This document shows, one piece after another, positions 7,719-50,514 of a stretch of DNA of 64,000 nucleotides; positions within the stretch are counted from its first letter, which is position 1; the number at the start of each line of letters is the position of its first letter. A program made the translations under genes and the position numbers. The notes below the pieces were generated by a model. That model saw only the letters and a program-made list of their open reading frames with translations. It did not search any database and was not told the origin of the DNA. The stretch is taken from assembly GCF_000518485.1 (NCBI RefSeq), contig NZ_JADR01000001.1, positions 744,001 to 808,000 of the forward strand, given 5' to 3'. Source of the stretch: Olleya marilimosa CAM030 (lineage in GTDB: Bacteria; Bacteroidota; Bacteroidia; Flavobacteriales; Flavobacteriaceae).

Positions 7719-7728
7719 GCTTTGGTTT

Positions 7729-7817
7729 GCGTTAGCGATAGTAATGACATCCTTTTTTTGCTGCCATATATGGCAAAAAAAGATATAATGGATAGCGCGA
7801 CCCTTGTGGTAACGCCC
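7729..7817 (-). repeat. Structured intergenic element with nested inverted repeats
   Basis: The outer ends pair: GCGTTA at 7729-7734 with TAACGC at 7810-7815. A central hairpin pairs TTTTTTTGC (7753-7761) with GCAAAAAAA (7773-7781), and within it TGCCATATATGGCA (7762-7775) is a perfect 14-bp palindrome. GGAT/ATCC segments flank the centre. The element fills the 107-bp gap between two cotranscribed genes. It resembles palindromic intergenic repeats I associate with Flavobacteriia, but copy number cannot be judged here as I saw no second copy in the window. It could act as a partial terminator or RNA-processing site (inference). Confidence 0.6.
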
Positions 7818-29542: not shown

Positions 29543-29616
29543 TGAGCCCGACAGGATTCGAACCTGTGACCGCCTCCTTAGAAGGGAGGTGCTCTATCCA
29601 GCTGAGCTACGAGCCC
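29543..29616 (-). tRNA. tRNA-Arg (TCT)
   Basis: A 74-nt cloverleaf on the minus strand without encoded CCA. The acceptor stem closes with two G-U pairs, the anticodon stem is CCTCC/GGAGG around loop CTTCTAA (anticodon TCT), and the T-arm reads ACAGG TTCGAAT CCTGT. It is the last of three clustered tRNAs. Confidence 0.95.
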
Positions 29617-29629
29617 GTAGCATTAAAAG

Positions 29630-29704
29630 TCGGGGTGGCAGGATTCGAACCTGCGGCCTCCACGTCCCAAACGTGGCGCGATAACCGGGCTACGCTACAC
29701 CCCG
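29630..29704 (-). tRNA. tRNA-Pro (TGG)
   Basis: A 75-nt cloverleaf. The acceptor is CGGGGTG/CACCCCG, anticodon stem CCACG/CGTGG with loop TTTGGGA (anticodon TGG), T-arm GCAGG TTCGAAT CCTGC, discriminator A, no encoded CCA. It lies 13 bp from tRNA-Arg and 39 bp from tRNA-Ser. Confidence 0.95.
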
Positions 29705-29743
29705 AAAAAGGTTATCAAAATAAAAATTTTGAGAAAATAATAG

Positions 29744-29832
29744 CGGAGAGACAGGGATTCGAACCCTGGGTAAGTGTTTCCACCTACGACGATTTAGCAA
29801 ACCGCTCCTTTCGGCCACTCAGGCACCTCTCC
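29744..29832 (-). tRNA. tRNA-Ser (GCT)
   Basis: An 89-nt class II tRNA with a long variable arm. The acceptor is GGAGAGG/TCTCTCC, the anticodon loop is TTGCTAA (anticodon GCT), the T-arm is CAGGG TTCGAAT CCCTG, and the discriminator is G as in serine tRNAs. First gene of the cluster. Confidence 0.95.
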
Positions 29833-43927: not shown

Positions 43928-45484
43928 TTATTTTTTGGGTTCGCTATCTGCATTTTCAATTTCAGGTTGCTCTGGTTGTTTAAATAAATCTAGGTAAGCT
44001 AAAGGGATACCTTCTATAACATGACTAGCAATAAAGCTTTGATAACCTAAATCTTCTACTAATAAATCTGCTGCTTTACCATGTAGATACACTCCAAATA
44101 TAGCTGCTACTAATGGATCATAACTTTGGGCTATCAATCCAGAAATTATACCTGTTAAAACATCTCCAGTACCTGCTGTTGCCAAACCTGGATTTCCTGT
44201 GGCATTAACATATAATTTATCTTGAAAAACAGTGATAGTATTAGCTCCTTTAATAACTATAATACATTTATATTTTTTAGAAAACGCTTTAGCTTTTTTA
44301 AGTTTATCAAACTCATCTTCCCATTGACCTAGCAATCGCTCTAACTCTTTTGGATGCGGAGTTAAAACCGTGTTTTCTGGTAAAAGTTTTAATAATGCTT
44401 TCTTTTTAGAAAGTATATTAATTCCGTCTGCATCAATTACTAATGGTGTTTTATTGACATTCAAAAACGCTTCAAAAGCATCAATTGTTTGAGCATCAGT
44501 ACCAACACCTACTCCAAAAGCGATAACGTTTGGTTGTATATCAAATGCTATTGATGTAATTTTTTCTTCGTCAGTATCTGTAATAACCATTGCTTCTGGA
44601 AAACCGACTTGTAATGGTATATAACCACATTTAGGTGTATAAGCTGTTACTTTTCCTGCTCCAATTGCAAGTACACCTTGACTAGCTAAAGTGACAGATC
44701 CTATTTTTCCGTAACTACCTCCAATAACTAAAACATGACCAAAACTTCCTTTATGACTATATTTTTCTCTTGGTTTATATAATGGTAAGACTTCATTTTT
44801 TCCAATTAATTCTGCTTCGGTTGGTGTGGTGTAAAGATATTCAGGATCAATACCAATATCTAAAACTTCCCATTGCACTGTATATTTAGCAGTTTCAGGT
44901 AAAAAGAAAACTAGTTTTGGAGTTTGAAAACTTAGTGTGTAACCAGCATTTACAACACTCTCTTCATCAATTGGTGCAGCATCTGTTGCTAAACCTGAAG
45001 GTATATCTATAGATAGTACAAAAGCTTTTGTAGCTCTAAAATAATTAAACAATTGTTTAATCCAACCTTCAACAGGTCTATTTAAACCAATACCAAAAAT
45101 GGCATCTACTATTATATCTTTGTCGTTAATAGCAGGTAACTCACTAGCATCATTTAATAATATAGGCCAATCTTTAGTCGTATTTTTTATGCGTTCGTAA
45201 TTATTTAAAAAATCTTTAGATCGTGTTGTACTATGGTTAACAATATAGGTTTTAACGTTATAACCATGGGTTGTTAAGTGCCTAGCAACCACTAACCCAT
45301 CTCCTCCATTATTACCAATTCCACAAAACACGTGTATAGGTACTTGTGCACCTTGCATACGCATATGCAACCAATTAAATATCTGCGTTCCTGCACGCTC
45401 CATTAAATCTGTGGAAGTAATACCTTGCTTTTTAGCGGTTAAGGCATCGCCTTCATAAATTTGTTCTTTCGAAAATATTTTCAT
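43928..45484 (-). CDS. nnr: Bifunctional NAD(P)H-hydrate epimerase and ADP-dependent dehydratase
   Basis: Repairs hydrated NAD(P)H. The true start is likely the ATG at 45484 (MKIFSKEQIYEGDALTAKK); the frame is open to 45628 but runs through the thr promoter region and lacks family character. Length 518 residues. The N-terminal epimerase part has FCGIGNNGGDGLVVARHL. The C-terminal dehydratase part has GSYGKIGSVTLAS and the ATP-binding GNPGLATAGTGDVLTG. The C-terminus is acidic. Divergent from thrA. Confidence 0.92.
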   Translation of the reverse strand: MKIFSKEQIYEGDALTAKKQGITSTDLMERAGTQIFNWLHMRMQGAQVPIHVFCGIGNNGGDGLVVARHLTTHGYNVKTYIVNHSTTRSKDFLNNYERIKNTTKDWPILLNDASELPAINDKDIIVDAIFGIGLNRPVEGWIKQLFNYFRATKAFVLSIDIPSGLATDAAPIDEESVVNAGYTLSFQTPKLVFFLPETAKYTVQWEVLDIGIDPEYLYTTPTEAELIGKNEVLPLYKPREKYSHKGSFGHVLVIGGSYGKIGSVTLASQGVLAIGAGKVTAYTPKCGYIPLQVGFPEAMVITDTDEEKITSIAFDIQPNVIAFGVGVGTDAQTIDAFEAFLNVNKTPLVIDADGINILSKKKALLKLLPENTVLTPHPKELERLLGQWEDEFDKLKKAKAFSKKYKCIIVIKGANTITVFQDKLYVNATGNPGLATAGTGDVLTGIISGLIAQSYDPLVAAIFGVYLHGKAADLLVEDLGYQSFIASHVIEGIPLAYLDLFKQPEQPEIENADSEPKK

Positions 45485-45540
45485 TTTAATAATATATTGG
45501 CTATTAATTATCAATCTCGCAAAAATTGATGTTTCGTTTT

Positions 45541-45568
45541 TTTGATAAAAGTAAAAGTAATACATTTG
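45541..45568 (+). promoter_or_regulatory. Candidate promoter of the thr operon
   Basis: TTTG (45541-45544) and TACATTTG (45561-45568) are separated by 16 bases, one short of the usual 17-23. It places the start of transcription near 45575, about a dozen bases before the leader peptide ATG at 45588. Confidence 0.55.
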
Positions 45569-45587
45569 ATAGGTATAGATGCATAAA

Positions 45588-45644
45588 ATGAAAAAAAGAC
45601 ACACTATTTTTACGTTAATTATGACCATTACCCTTTTGGGTTAA
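45588..45644 (+). CDS. Putative thr operon leader peptide
   Basis: An 18-codon frame, MKKRHTIFTLIMTITLLG then TAA, that sits between a promoter candidate and thrA. Ten residues after the basic start are Thr, Ile, Leu or Met (four Thr, three Ile, three Leu, one Met), matching products of the aspartate pathway and following the pattern of classical attenuator peptides. It is too short for ordinary gene finding. Stop lies 64 bp before thrA. No homologous leader can be checked here. Confidence 0.6.
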   Translation: MKKRHTIFTLIMTITLLG

Positions 45645-45683
45645 TCACTATATATCCTTCCGTTTGGGTAGTTTTTTAACTAC
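45629..45683 (+). promoter_or_regulatory. Candidate thr attenuator structure
   Basis: TACCC (45629-45633, inside the leader's Thr/Leu codons) can pair with GGGTA (45666-45670). The same bases are needed in an alternative hairpin, GTAGTT (45668-45673) with AACTAC (45678-45683) and a TTTT loop. The two folds exclude each other, as in ribosome-controlled attenuation. No strong T-run follows the second hairpin, so control might be translational or use pausing instead. Confidence 0.45.
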
Positions 45684-45708
45684 AATTCCTATCTTAAAAT
45701 AATTTAAA

Positions 45709-48150
45709 ATGAAAGTATTAAAATTTGGAGGAACCTCTGTAGGTTCTGCTCAAAACATAAAAAAAGTCATAGCCATTCTTCAAAAAGAATCGCTTTCTAG
45801 TCCAATCGTTTGCGTTGTATCTGCTGTTGGTGGTATAACGGACAAGTTGTTAGAAGCTGGTGAATTAGCTAAACAAAAAAACAAAAGCTATATCACTGTT
45901 TTTGAAAAAATTAAAACCATTCATTTTAAAGTTATTGAAGGCTTAGCAAATAATCCAAAATCAATACTTAAAGAAGTAGACGCTACTTTTGAAAACTTAA
46001 AACAATTGTTAAATGGAATTTATTTAATTAACGAGTTATCTCCTAAAACGTCAGATAAACTAGTTAGTTATGGCGAATTATTGTCCTCTTTTATTATTGC
46101 TAAAGTAATGGAAGACTTAAATCTAAATACTGTTTTAAAAAATAGTCAAGAGTTAATTGTAACTAACACAAATTTTACAAAAGCAGAAGTTAATTATGAC
46201 ATCACTAATAAAAATATTATAGATTACTTTAATAAAGCCAATCAATTAATCACAATTTTACCAGGTTTTGTTGCTAAATCACAAAGTGGAGAAACTACTA
46301 CTTTAGGTCGTGGTGGATCAGATTTTACTGCAGCAATTATAGCTGCTGCTTTAAAAGTTGAGCAATTAGAAATTTGGACAGATGTTAGTGGTATGTACAC
46401 TACTAATCCAAAACTGGTTAAACAAGCTTATCCTATAGCTAATTTATCCTACCAAGAAGCTATGGAATTATCTCACTTTGGAGCCAAGGTATTATATCCT
46501 CCAACTGTACAGCCTGTTTTAAACTTAGCAATTCCTATACATATAAAAAACACATTACATCCTGAGGCTTTCGGAACTGTAATTTCTAATCATAAAAAAG
46601 AAAACCACCTTACCGTTAAAGGGATTAGCCATATTGACAACGTAGCCTTGCTAACTTTAGAAGGTAGTGGTATGGTTGGTATTCCAGGATTTTCTAAGCG
46701 CTTATTTGAAACCTTAGCTAACGAAAAAATTAACATCATATTTATAACACAAGCATCTTCAGAACATTCTATTTGTTTTGGTATTGATGTTAATAATGCA
46801 GAACAAGCTGAACAAGCCATTAATAATGCATTTGAATACGAAATCTCTTTACACAAAATCAACCCAATTATTGTTGAAAAAGACTTGTCTATCATTGCTT
46901 TAATTGGTGATAACATGAAGAGTCACCAAGGTATTAGCGGAAAACTTTTTAGTACCTTAGGAAAAAACAATATTAATGTTAGAGCAATAGCACAAGGTGC
47001 ATCAGAAAAAAACATCTCTGCAGTAATTAATCAAAGTGATGTAAAAAAAGCTTTAAATAGCTTACACGAGCGTTTCTTTGAAGTCAATACTAAACAATTA
47101 AATGTGTTTATAACAGGTATTGGAAATGTTGGCGAAAAACTTATTGATCAAATCAAACAACAATATAACTTTTTAAAGAAAAATCTAAAATTAGATGTCA
47201 AAATTGTTGGAATGTCTAACTCCAGAAAAATGATTTTTAATCCTAACGGAATAGATTTAAATAATTGGACAGAACCGTTTCATCATGCAGACAAATCAAG
47301 CATCGAAGGGTTTTATCAAAAAGTAATAGAGCTTAATCTTAGAAACAGCATTTTTGTAGATGTTACTGCAAATAAAGACGTTGCTTCTGTTTATGAAAAC
47401 TACCTAAAGCAAAGTGTTGCAGTCGTGGCTTGTAATAAAATTGCTTGTTCGGATACATTTGCTAATTACAAAAATCTGCAAGATTTATCGCTTAAATATA
47501 ATGCGCCATTTTTATACGAAACTAATGTTGGTGCAGGTTTACCAATCATTAATACGCTTAATAACTTAGTTGCTTCTGGAGACAAAGTCATTAGTATACA
47601 AGCTGTATTATCAGGTAGTTTAAATTTTGTGTTTAATAATTTTAGTGATAAAAAGAATTTTCATGATACAGTAAAACAAGCACAATTTGAAGGGTATACA
47701 GAGCCTGATCCACGTATTGATTTAAGCGGAATTGATGTGGCTAGAAAAATATTAATTCTTGCTCGAGAAAACGGAATTCCGATGGAAATTGAAGATATTA
47801 CAAACGATTCTTTTTTAACCGAAGCTAATTTAAACAGCGACTCTGTTGACGACTTTTATGACACTTTAATTAATGATGAAGCACATTTTCAAAAGCTATA
47901 TGCTTCGGCTAAAGCCAACAAATGTCAGCTAAAATATGTTGCCGAATATAAAAATGGAAAAGCTAAAGTAGGATTACAAGAAGTGCCAGAAGGACATCCT
48001 TTTTATAATCTTGAAGGAAAAGATAACATCGTTATGTTTTACACACAACGCTATCCAGAACAGCCTTTAATAGTTAAAGGTGCTGGTGCAGGAGCAGATG
48101 TGACTGCATCTGGATTATTTGCAGATATTATCAGAATAGGGAATAAATAA
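45709..48150 (+). CDS. thrA: Bifunctional aspartate kinase/homoserine dehydrogenase
   Basis: First and third steps of threonine biosynthesis. The 813-residue protein has an aspartate kinase domain (KFGGTSVGSAQNI at the start, TTLGRGGSDFTA near 203), two ACT repeats (about 310-450), and a homoserine dehydrogenase domain starting near 465 (VFITGIGNVGEKL, then NVGAGLPIINTLNNL). This is the fused ThrA/MetL type. Feedback by Thr would be expected from the ACT domains. First gene of thrABC. Confidence 0.95.
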   Translation: MKVLKFGGTSVGSAQNIKKVIAILQKESLSSPIVCVVSAVGGITDKLLEAGELAKQKNKSYITVFEKIKTIHFKVIEGLANNPKSILKEVDATFENLKQLLNGIYLINELSPKTSDKLVSYGELLSSFIIAKVMEDLNLNTVLKNSQELIVTNTNFTKAEVNYDITNKNIIDYFNKANQLITILPGFVAKSQSGETTTLGRGGSDFTAAIIAAALKVEQLEIWTDVSGMYTTNPKLVKQAYPIANLSYQEAMELSHFGAKVLYPPTVQPVLNLAIPIHIKNTLHPEAFGTVISNHKKENHLTVKGISHIDNVALLTLEGSGMVGIPGFSKRLFETLANEKINIIFITQASSEHSICFGIDVNNAEQAEQAINNAFEYEISLHKINPIIVEKDLSIIALIGDNMKSHQGISGKLFSTLGKNNINVRAIAQGASEKNISAVINQSDVKKALNSLHERFFEVNTKQLNVFITGIGNVGEKLIDQIKQQYNFLKKNLKLDVKIVGMSNSRKMIFNPNGIDLNNWTEPFHHADKSSIEGFYQKVIELNLRNSIFVDVTANKDVASVYENYLKQSVAVVACNKIACSDTFANYKNLQDLSLKYNAPFLYETNVGAGLPIINTLNNLVASGDKVISIQAVLSGSLNFVFNNFSDKKNFHDTVKQAQFEGYTEPDPRIDLSGIDVARKILILARENGIPMEIEDITNDSFLTEANLNSDSVDDFYDTLINDEAHFQKLYASAKANKCQLKYVAEYKNGKAKVGLQEVPEGHPFYNLEGKDNIVMFYTQRYPEQPLIVKGAGAGADVTASGLFADIIRIGNK

Positions 48151-48215: not shown

Positions 48216-49139
48216 ATGAACGAAATCAAAATATTCTCACCAGCAACAGTAGCTAACGTTGCTTGCGGATTTGATGTATTAGGCTTTTGCTTAGATACTA
48301 TTGGTGACGAAATGGTGATTAGAAAAACCACTGAAAAAGGAATCAAAATCACTAAAATAATTGGTGCAAATCTTCCTTTTGAAACAGATAAAAATGTTGC
48401 TAGTGTTTCGGCTTTAGCCTTATATAATGACGCTAATCCTGATTGTGGATTTGAAATTGAGATTTATAAAAATATTAAACCAGGAAGCGGAATTGGAAGC
48501 AGTTCTGCAAGTGCAGCTGGAAGTGTATTTGCTATAAACGAGCTGTTAGGCAGACCATATAATGAAACCCAATTAACTAATTTTGCTATGAAAGGTGAAG
48601 CTATTGCTAGTGGTTGCGAGCATGCAGATAATATTGCTCCTGCCCTATTTGGTGGTTTTACTTTAGTAAAAAGCACATCACCTTTACAAGTTTTACAATT
48701 GCCTACACCAGAAGATTTATTTGTAACGATTATCCATCCACAAATTGAAGTTAAAACCTCTGAAGCACGTGCTATTTTACCAAAACAGATTCCGTTGCAA
48801 AATGCCATCACACAATGGTCAAACGTTGGTAGCTTGGTACATGCTTTACATACTAACGACTACAATTTACTTAGTCAATCATTAAATGATGTAGTTGTAG
48901 AGCCTTATAGAAGTCAATTAATACCTCATTTTAATTCGGTTAAAACCGAAGTCATAAAAGCAGGTGCTTTAGGCGCTGGAATTTCTGGTTCTGGACCGTC
49001 AATATTCGCTTTATCAAAAAGTAAAAATACTGCGGAAAATGTAGCTAAAGCAATGACCACTATCTATGCTAAAACAGACATTAATTTTATTACTTATGTG
49101 TCAAAGATTAACACAGAAGGCATGAAAATACTAAGTTAA
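48216..49139 (+). CDS. thrB: Homoserine kinase
   Basis: Phosphorylates homoserine. The 307-residue GHMP kinase has the ATP loop PGSGIGSSSASAAG (about 88-102), the N-terminal SPATVANVACGFDVLGFC and the C-terminal GAGISGSGPSIFAL. 65 bp after thrA and 82 bp before thrC on the same strand, so almost certainly cotranscribed. Confidence 0.95.
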   Translation: MNEIKIFSPATVANVACGFDVLGFCLDTIGDEMVIRKTTEKGIKITKIIGANLPFETDKNVASVSALALYNDANPDCGFEIEIYKNIKPGSGIGSSSASAAGSVFAINELLGRPYNETQLTNFAMKGEAIASGCEHADNIAPALFGGFTLVKSTSPLQVLQLPTPEDLFVTIIHPQIEVKTSEARAILPKQIPLQNAITQWSNVGSLVHALHTNDYNLLSQSLNDVVVEPYRSQLIPHFNSVKTEVIKAGALGAGISGSGPSIFALSKSKNTAENVAKAMTTIYAKTDINFITYVSKINTEGMKILS

Positions 49140-49174: not shown

Positions 49175-49225
49175 ATGACCATATCCTGTGTCCTGACAAA
49201 GACAAACAAAAAACAAAAAAAATGA
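49175..49225 (+). CDS. Possible 16-codon leader ORF upstream of thrC
   Basis: ATG at 49175 opens MTISCVLTKTNKKQKK, ending in TGA that overlaps the thrC ATG (ATGA). It could couple ribosome flow into thrC. Its opening residues recall the MTI inside the larger leader at 45588. The A-rich run makes a chance frame quite possible. Confidence 0.3.
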   Translation: MTISCVLTKTNKKQKK

Positions 49226-50514
49226 ACTACTACTCATTAAACCATAAAGCACCTAATACAACATTTAAAGATGCTGTTGTAAAAGGATTAGCGCCAGATA
49301 AAGGATTGTATTTTCCAGAACGTATAACACCTTTACCTGCTTCATTTTTTGAAAATATAGATCATTTAAGTTACAACGCTATTGCGTTTGAAGCCTTACA
49401 ACAATTTGTGAGTCCAGATATACCTAAGGATGTTTTAAAAACTATTATTGCTGAAACCTTATCGTTTGAATTTCCTGTGGTAAAACTGAATGATAACATC
49501 TCAACATTAGAGCTTTTTCATGGACCAACCATGGCTTTTAAAGATGTTGGAGCCCGATTTATGGCACGTTGTTTAGGTTATTTTAATAAAGATAATACTA
49601 ATCAAGTTACAGTATTAGTAGCTACTTCTGGAGATACAGGAGGTGCTGTTGCCAATGGATTTTTAGGTGTTAAAGGTGTTAATGTTGTTATTTTGTATCC
49701 TTCAGGAAAAGTAAGCGATATTCAAGAAAAACAACTGACAACGCTAGGTCAAAATATTAAAGCTTTGGAAGTTGATGGTGTATTTGACGATTGTCAAGAC
49801 ATGGTTAAACGTGCTTTTTTGGATGATACGTTAACTAGTAAAATGCAATTAACATCTGCAAACTCTATAAATGTAGCACGTTGGTTACCACAACTACTTT
49901 ATTTTATGTTTGCCTATAAACAATTACACAAATCACATAAAGACATTGTGTTTTCTGTACCTAGTGGAAATTTTGGTAATGTATGTGCAGGAATGATGGC
50001 ACAACAATTAGGTTTACCTATAAAACATTTTATTGCGTCTAATAATCAAAATAACGTGGTTACTAACTACTTAAAAACGGAGCAATATTCACCAAAACAA
50101 TCTGTGCAAACCATTAGTAATGCAATGGATGTTGGTAATCCTAGTAACTTTATTCGTATTCAGGAAATTTATAAAAATAACTTTGGTACGTTAAAGGAAA
50201 ACTTATCGTCATTTAGCTTTACAGATGAAGACACAAAAGTGGCTTTAAAAGAGCTATATAATACTTATAATTACGTTGCAGATCCACATGGAGCAGTTGG
50301 TTATTTAGGCTGTAAAGCCTACTTAAAAAAGAATCCTAAGTCACATTGCGTGTTTTTAGAAACTGCACATCCAACTAAATTTTTAGATGTTGTTGAAGAC
50401 GTTATTAAAGATAAACAAGCCTTACCACCACAAATTGAAGCAGTTATGGACAAAACTAAAGTAGCCACTAAAATTAGTGATTATGCTGGTTTAAAGTCGT
50501 TTTTACTTGAGTAA
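49222..50514 (+). CDS. thrC: Threonine synthase
   Basis: PLP enzyme converting O-phosphohomoserine to threonine. The 430-residue protein starts YYSLNHKAPNTTFKDAV as in the ThrC class with a separate N-terminal domain. The PLP lysine lies in FHGPTMAFKDVGARFM (about 100-115), with the phosphate loop in ATSGDTGGAVANG. Full length, completing thrABC. Confidence 0.95.
   Translation: MNYYSLNHKAPNTTFKDAVVKGLAPDKGLYFPERITPLPASFFENIDHLSYNAIAFEALQQFVSPDIPKDVLKTIIAETLSFEFPVVKLNDNISTLELFHGPTMAFKDVGARFMARCLGYFNKDNTNQVTVLVATSGDTGGAVANGFLGVKGVNVVILYPSGKVSDIQEKQLTTLGQNIKALEVDGVFDDCQDMVKRAFLDDTLTSKMQLTSANSINVARWLPQLLYFMFAYKQLHKSHKDIVFSVPSGNFGNVCAGMMAQQLGLPIKHFIASNNQNNVVTNYLKTEQYSPKQSVQTISNAMDVGNPSNFIRIQEIYKNNFGTLKENLSSFSFTDEDTKVALKELYNTYNYVADPHGAVGYLGCKAYLKKNPKSHCVFLETAHPTKFLDVVEDVIKDKQALPPQIEAVMDKTKVATKISDYAGLKSFLLE

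Follow-up and report, generated by a model that had tools for sequence, protein, structure and literature searches.

In enterobacteria, the thrABC operon is directly preceded by thrL (Rfam family Thr_leader), a short leader peptide gene rich in Thr and Ile codons. In the E. coli pyrBI operon, it is the translating ribosome that keeps the terminator hairpin from forming; the terminator is an ordinary one and the signal is UTP. For Flavobacterium psychrophilum, which belongs to the same bacterial family as Olleya, one study (PMC9723704) reports strong indications of attenuation by leader peptides ahead of amino-acid operons, and the conserved 5' elements of the leader-peptide type that it names include those of pheA and hisG. 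Neither thrA nor threonine appears in the main text of that study, and its section on 5' elements names no thr leader. Short frames reminiscent of leader peptides are mentioned in a study of Bacteroides thetaiotaomicron (PMC7366714). In the largely open-access literature searched, we recognised no description of a thr leader from Bacteroidota. The Olleya leader resembles thrL in being Thr/Ile-rich and in lying directly upstream of thrABC, and the signal is presumably the same. It differs from thrL in that it has no T-run terminator, no supported antiterminator and no Rfam match; other hairpins and a conserved motif are found instead. The Olleya leader is very probably like the thr leader in what is sensed, but probably unusual in its output.

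The window is the whole 64,000-nucleotide stretch of Olleya marilimosa CAM030 DNA that was analysed, and positions are counted from its first letter. The thrABC locus contains the following features:

45541..45568, forward strand: candidate promoter, TTTG at 45541-45544 and TACATTTG at 45561-45568 (letters matched to the Bacteroidota consensus)
45588..45644, forward strand: leader peptide gene MKKRHTIFTLIMTITLLG, with four Thr and three Ile (letters read directly; frame and Thr/Ile codons conserved)
45630..45641, forward strand: hairpin P2, ACCC-TTTT-GGGT, over the last leader codons and just before the stop (pairs kept; arms exchanged in L143, L148 and L153)
45648..45662, forward strand: conserved G-poor motif CTATATATCCTTCCG (ATAT and TCCG above shuffle maxima; G scarce)
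45668..45683, forward strand: hairpin P3, GTAGTT-TTTT-AACTAC, no T-run behind (position conserved, stabler than shuffles, halves covary)
45709..48150, forward strand: thrA (aspartokinase/homoserine dehydrogenase), the first controlled gene (open reading frame; name by recognition and aspartokinase relatives)
48216-49139, downstream of thrA: thrB (open reading frame; name by sequence recognition)
49222-50514, downstream of thrB: thrC (open reading frame; name by sequence recognition)

The leader frame begins with the ATG at 45588 and ends with the TAA at 45642-45644; thrA begins at 45709 (sequence and list of open reading frames), leaving just 64 nt between the two. A second in-frame ATG, at 45579, is ACG in two congeners (L008, L009), and 45588 is therefore the conserved start. 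The Bacteroidota promoter consensus consists of TTTG and TAnnTTTG. Given the fit to this consensus at 45541-45568, transcription would start near 45572-45577, placing the leader within the transcript. The match was made by letters, the program's promoter scan at the thrA locus being of the sigma-70 type only. By eye, relatives have TAATAC(A/T)TTTG upstream of the leader or, where the leader is missing, immediately upstream of thrA. The names thrA, thrB and thrC come from sequence recognition and, for thrA, aspartokinase relatives, rather than from a family scan; the four best named thrA relatives are from Olleya (87-91% identity). On the minus strand, a divergent frame delimited mechanically (window 43928-45628) extends back across the leader and resembles an NAD(P)H-hydrate repair enzyme. 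This gene likely starts around 45484 (MKIFSKEQ), which probably places the leader between genes. Covariance models at the gathering score gave four Rfam matches in the window and none at the leader: three tRNA genes (29543-29832) and one Flavo-1 RNA (7720-7806, 60.4 bits).

For comparison with relatives, 30 loci of 60 relatives and 80 genome-contig loci yielded 109 thrA upstream regions of the family, of which 102 are distinct (L029, a short locus, was left out, and 13 unoriented loci were turned). The pattern ACCC..GGG is present in 80 of the 102 and absent from 22; in two of the 80 (L025, L078) the first match is stray and the true leader hairpin lies closer to thrA. Addition of further genera and phylum-wide loci gave 190 regions, 152 of them with the hairpin and 132 of these distinct. 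Rows of the 132 had to show a P2-like pattern and at least two Thr/Ile among the eight preceding codons, which also excluded L028, whose leader ends in Thr. Tests on 90 rows used a set thinned below 75% identity.

The 14 codons preceding P2 are strongly biased in the 132 rows: Thr accounts for 30.2% and Ile for 18.3%, compared to 6.5% and 10.2% in shuffled letters (highest of 200 shuffles, 8.0% and 12.2%). The leader frame contains no in-frame stop in any of the 132 rows, whereas the other two frames are interrupted in 64 and 34 rows. As the 132 rows were picked partly by their Thr/Ile content, the count was redone on the 80 rows picked by the pattern alone, with much the same result (Thr, 28.8%; Ile, 18.8%; in-frame stops in 0/80 rows, and in 39 and 21 rows in the other frames). 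In the 132 rows, Thr peaks at codons -6 to -4 and -2 to 0; that P2 opens with the last Thr codon follows from how the search pattern was built. Short frames are frequent in AT-rich DNA, and a functionless chance frame would need no further explanation, but the codon bias, the open frame and the conservation of the hairpin across many genera make this reading vanishingly improbable. On the sequence evidence, the 45588-45644 frame encodes a conserved leader peptide.

The earlier note had pointed to an 18-codon frame between a promoter candidate and thrA. This frame is present, and both its reading frame and its codons are conserved in many genera; the same comparison disposes of the objection foreseen in the note, namely that close relatives might show no such conservation of the frame and its Thr/Ile codons. 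The proposal that Thr, Ile, Met and Leu all serve as regulatory codons can be kept for Thr and Ile, which dominate the run, but not for Leu and Met. Codon +1 is Leu in 75, Pro in 45, Arg in 11 and Gln in one of the 132 rows; since the leader ending varies in this way, Leu and Met are not counted as sensed. The final Leu-Leu-Gly of the Olleya leader arises because the hairpin letters dictate these codons.

To follow the element through the family, a covariance model (R1) was built from an alignment of 65 rows (A1). In this genome, R1 finds the thrA locus with an E value of 3.7e-9, and the next match has an E value of 0.43. A pattern search of the whole genome for a second copy of the module gave three matches, of which two have nothing of note adjoining; the reversed control gave two. 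Among 149 family genomes, one per genus, R1 matches 68 at E <=0.05, each once; 81 are without a match, whatever the reason. Regions were retrieved for 57 of the 68, and in 54 of these a thrA start lies downstream within the stretch (51 by script; L178, L215 and L226 by eye). As for the other three, L194 matches locus L104, with thrA farther downstream; L225 has a Thr/Ile leader, with thrA beyond the retrieved stretch; and L227 (E 0.045) is probably a false match. The remaining 11 of the 68 fall at thrA loci already in the set.

Given that the pattern is absent from 22 of the 102 family loci, the device is dispensable. One of the 22, L104, has a variant leader (ACTC) farther upstream. In several leaderless loci, including those of Lacinutrix and Oceanihabitans (L036-L040, L044, L048), thrA is immediately preceded by the promoter letters, which by eye looks like loss of the whole module. 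Three leaderless thrA upstream regions of Winogradskyella (L081, L089, L102) share a long, mutually similar stretch that has no Rfam match. At the level of the phylum, 50 regions from a longer list of thrA matches were sorted by eye: 15 are of the P2 type (the window included), three have a reversed hairpin, five combine a Thr/Ile leader with a T-run terminator (L150 being doubtful), and 27 are without an evident Thr/Ile leader.

Hairpin P2 lies at the very end of the leader. In alignment A1, its four pairs are retained in 63 to 65 of the 65 rows with zero compensated changes; because these rows were picked by their ACCC and GGG letters, the invariance alone is weak evidence of a fold. The fold is better supported by three distant thr leaders in which the arms are exchanged: ACGGG-GTAA-CCCGT in L143, ACGGG-GTGA-CCCGT in L148, and a close form in L153, all three with the leader stop codon in the loop. 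Of the 132 rows, 23 have the leader stop within P2 and 109 have it behind the hairpin, no more than 12 nt away in 108 of the latter. The P2 of the window is short (four pairs) and has no T-run behind it. As an intrinsic terminator P2 is unconvincing: loose criteria are satisfied in 30 of the 132 rows, and TTTT occurs within 12 nt behind it in 16. Five phylum-level loci of the P2 type (L122, L125, L127, L129, L135) have a T-rich stretch behind P2, and L137 was flagged for P3.

The other amino-acid leaders of this genome look like classical attenuators by their anatomy. The hisG leader MNFIQLHHHHFHTCTQAS (L229) has a His run followed by a strong T-run terminator, and the trpE leader (L258) has three consecutive Trp, again followed by a strong T-run terminator. 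Upstream of ilvD (L246), an Ile-rich leader frame MSKQVIIIISIISIVIISRSQGML is followed by a T-run terminator, as judged by eye; several congeners (L248-L251) have different letters upstream of their ilvD. The thr leader likewise places a leader peptide with regulatory codons between promoter and operon, but the strong T-run terminators of the hisG and trpE leaders are missing from the thr leaders. By one and the same rule, a T-run terminator is found in 13/13 hisG and 12/12 trpE leaders, with few exceptions from the genus and family (13 of 14 retrieved hisG loci; 12 of 24 retrieved PF04715 loci, 15 of which were inspected), and between P2 and thrA in only 3/132 thr leaders. In the region 45100-46000 of the window no T-run terminator was found, with 0.5 expected in shuffles. 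The lack of a strong T-run had been remarked on in the earlier note, and these counts bear it out. Distant Bacteroidota (L147, L149, L151, L152, and less clearly L150) likewise have a Thr/Ile leader before thrA; those of L147, L149, L151 and L152 have the classical anatomy, with a T-run terminator, and differ from Olleya in having no P2 of its kind.

Behind P2 follows a stretch with little G. Positions +8 to +20 behind P2 contain no or one G in all of the 90 thinned rows, and the motif stretch is also pyrimidine-rich. ATAT occurs in 73 and TCCG in 33 of the 90 rows, whereas letter shuffles reach at most 33 and 11. A hairpin in the P3 region is present in 73 of the 90 rows, with a median start 29 nt behind P2 (interquartile range 28-31). 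The letters of P3 vary between genera, but its halves covary: a half pairs with its partner from the same species at -3.69 kcal/mol and with halves from other species at -1.96 kcal/mol (swap test, p=5.5e-10). P3 is also stabler than dinucleotide shuffles (mean z, -1.53), with 32 of the 90 rows beyond the 5% level where 4.5 are expected. An intrinsic terminator at P3 was considered and rejected, as there is no T-run and TTTT occurs within 9 nt behind P3 in only 9 of 73 rows; T is slightly raised at positions 2-6 behind P3 (0.42-0.49, base 0.36). A candidate hairpin within the leader, P1, has a mean z of -0.93 against shuffles (16 of 90 rows beyond the level, 4.5 expected), but its halves show no significant covariation (p=0.19, 0.17), and P1 was rejected as a pause hairpin. 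The short leader of the window seems to lack P1.

A conserved motif flanked by two hairpins might also be expected of a threonine riboswitch (a small-molecule RNA sensor), with the leader frame as a by-product. We regard this as very improbable, since codons are conserved besides the RNA and stops are absent from the reading frame; nor does any Rfam family match this region of the window or the 12 thrA loci examined that lack the P2 pattern.

The earlier note had further proposed mutually exclusive hairpins, TACCC with GGGTA or GTAGTT with AACTAC. All of these letters are present in the window (TACCC at 45629-45633, GGGTA at 45666-45670, GTAGTT/AACTAC at 45668-45683), and because GGGTA overlaps GTAGTT/AACTAC the two pairings exclude each other by letters. 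Classical attenuation could thus be envisaged, with P3 (or P2) as a weak terminator and TACCC-GGGTA as the antiterminator. The swap test, in which P3 is the sole positive control and which would not register a rival fold of invariant sequence, gave mean ranks of 0.499 and 0.473 for pairing of the codon region with the 5' and the other arm of P3 in the 90 diverged rows, compared to 0.5 by chance. Over all rival pairings (codons with the P3 arms, the P2 3' arm with the motif, the P1 3' arm with the motif or P3) the mean ranks were 0.470-0.499, and in coarser partitions they were 0.465 to 0.555, compared to 0.592 for the P3 halves. A conserved antiterminator that involves the leader and excludes a terminator was therefore not detectable by these tests. 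Thus, GTAGTT/AACTAC corresponds to a real covarying hairpin, for which no rival fold is kept, while the TACCC-GGGTA switch is not kept among relatives; it may still be relevant within Olleya's genus. The distant thr leaders with T-run terminators, the 30 P2 hairpins that pass as terminators by loose criteria and the slightly raised T behind P3 speak for classical attenuation. Set against the chance-level ranks and the scarcity of T-run terminators and of TTTT near P2 and P3, they leave it an unlikely explanation of the Olleya locus. As neither of two defining features, a terminator and an antiterminator, was found in the thr leader, we do not class it as a classical attenuator.

The absence of a terminator from the locus, and its rarity among thr leaders in general, would also fit control of translation, in which the leader ribosome alters translation of thrA by reinitiation or by refolding around P3. 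The thrA start is just 64 nt away from the leader stop, and there is a published proposal of leaders that enhance translation downstream (PMC4833913). P3, on the other hand, ends 25 nt ahead of thrA and leaves the start uncovered, and a typical distance of 60-100 nt with an intervening stable hairpin would disfavour reinitiation. We consider translational control doubtful, if somewhat less so than classical attenuation.

We favour a different reading, in which a Thr/Ile leader of thrABC is sensed by the ribosome and the stalled ribosome acts as the antiterminator at P2. The chances of this whole statement being correct appear about even. We are nearly certain of its first part, that the leader senses the supply of Thr and Ile through the ribosome; the second, that formation of P2 leads to pausing and termination of the polymerase unless blocked by a stalled ribosome, is put forward more tentatively, as a conceivable output that falls somewhat short of even odds. 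The front edge of a ribosome lies ~12 nt ahead. With the A site on codons -3 to 0, this edge would be over the 5' arm of P2, so that P2 would be the element switched off. When charged tRNA-Thr and tRNA-Ile are plentiful, the ribosome would complete the leader and depart, and P2 would fold behind the RNA polymerase. The polymerase would then slow down at the G-poor, pyrimidine-rich motif and be terminated, most plausibly by Rho as the putative termination factor. When Thr or Ile is scarce, the ribosome would stall in the Thr/Ile run, its front edge keeping unpaired the 5' arm of P2, which includes the last Thr codon, ACC. With P2 blocked, transcription would continue into thrA, the stalled ribosome itself being the antiterminator. 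As in pyrBI, it would be the position of the ribosome over a hairpin, not a rival fold, that decides; the difference is that pyrBI has an ordinary terminator and responds to UTP, whereas the Olleya P2 has no T-run and the proposed signal is Thr/Ile. By arithmetic, ~30 nt would separate a ribosome at a leader stop within P2 from a polymerase at the C-G step, which lies ~20 nt behind P2; given the dimensions of such complexes, the two would be near contact.

More broadly, the thr leaders of Flavobacteria, and of certain other Bacteroidota, may have exchanged their terminator and antiterminator for an end hairpin, a G-poor motif and a covarying hairpin, such that the position of the ribosome decides on transcription. 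The hairpin would be at the leader stop (in some cases, around it), and the motif ~20 nt behind it, where the polymerase would meet the finishing ribosome. This generalisation is more speculative than the output proposed for Olleya itself. Textbook ribosome-sensing leaders need both a terminator and a rival fold, and the Olleya thr leader appears to have neither. Dozens of genera have retained it along with a conserved motif, and the his, trp and ilv leaders of the Olleya genome look like textbook cases. For a phylum in which RNA regulation has received little study, it would offer a compact natural test of how the position of a ribosome might steer RNA polymerase with no switch between two RNA folds.
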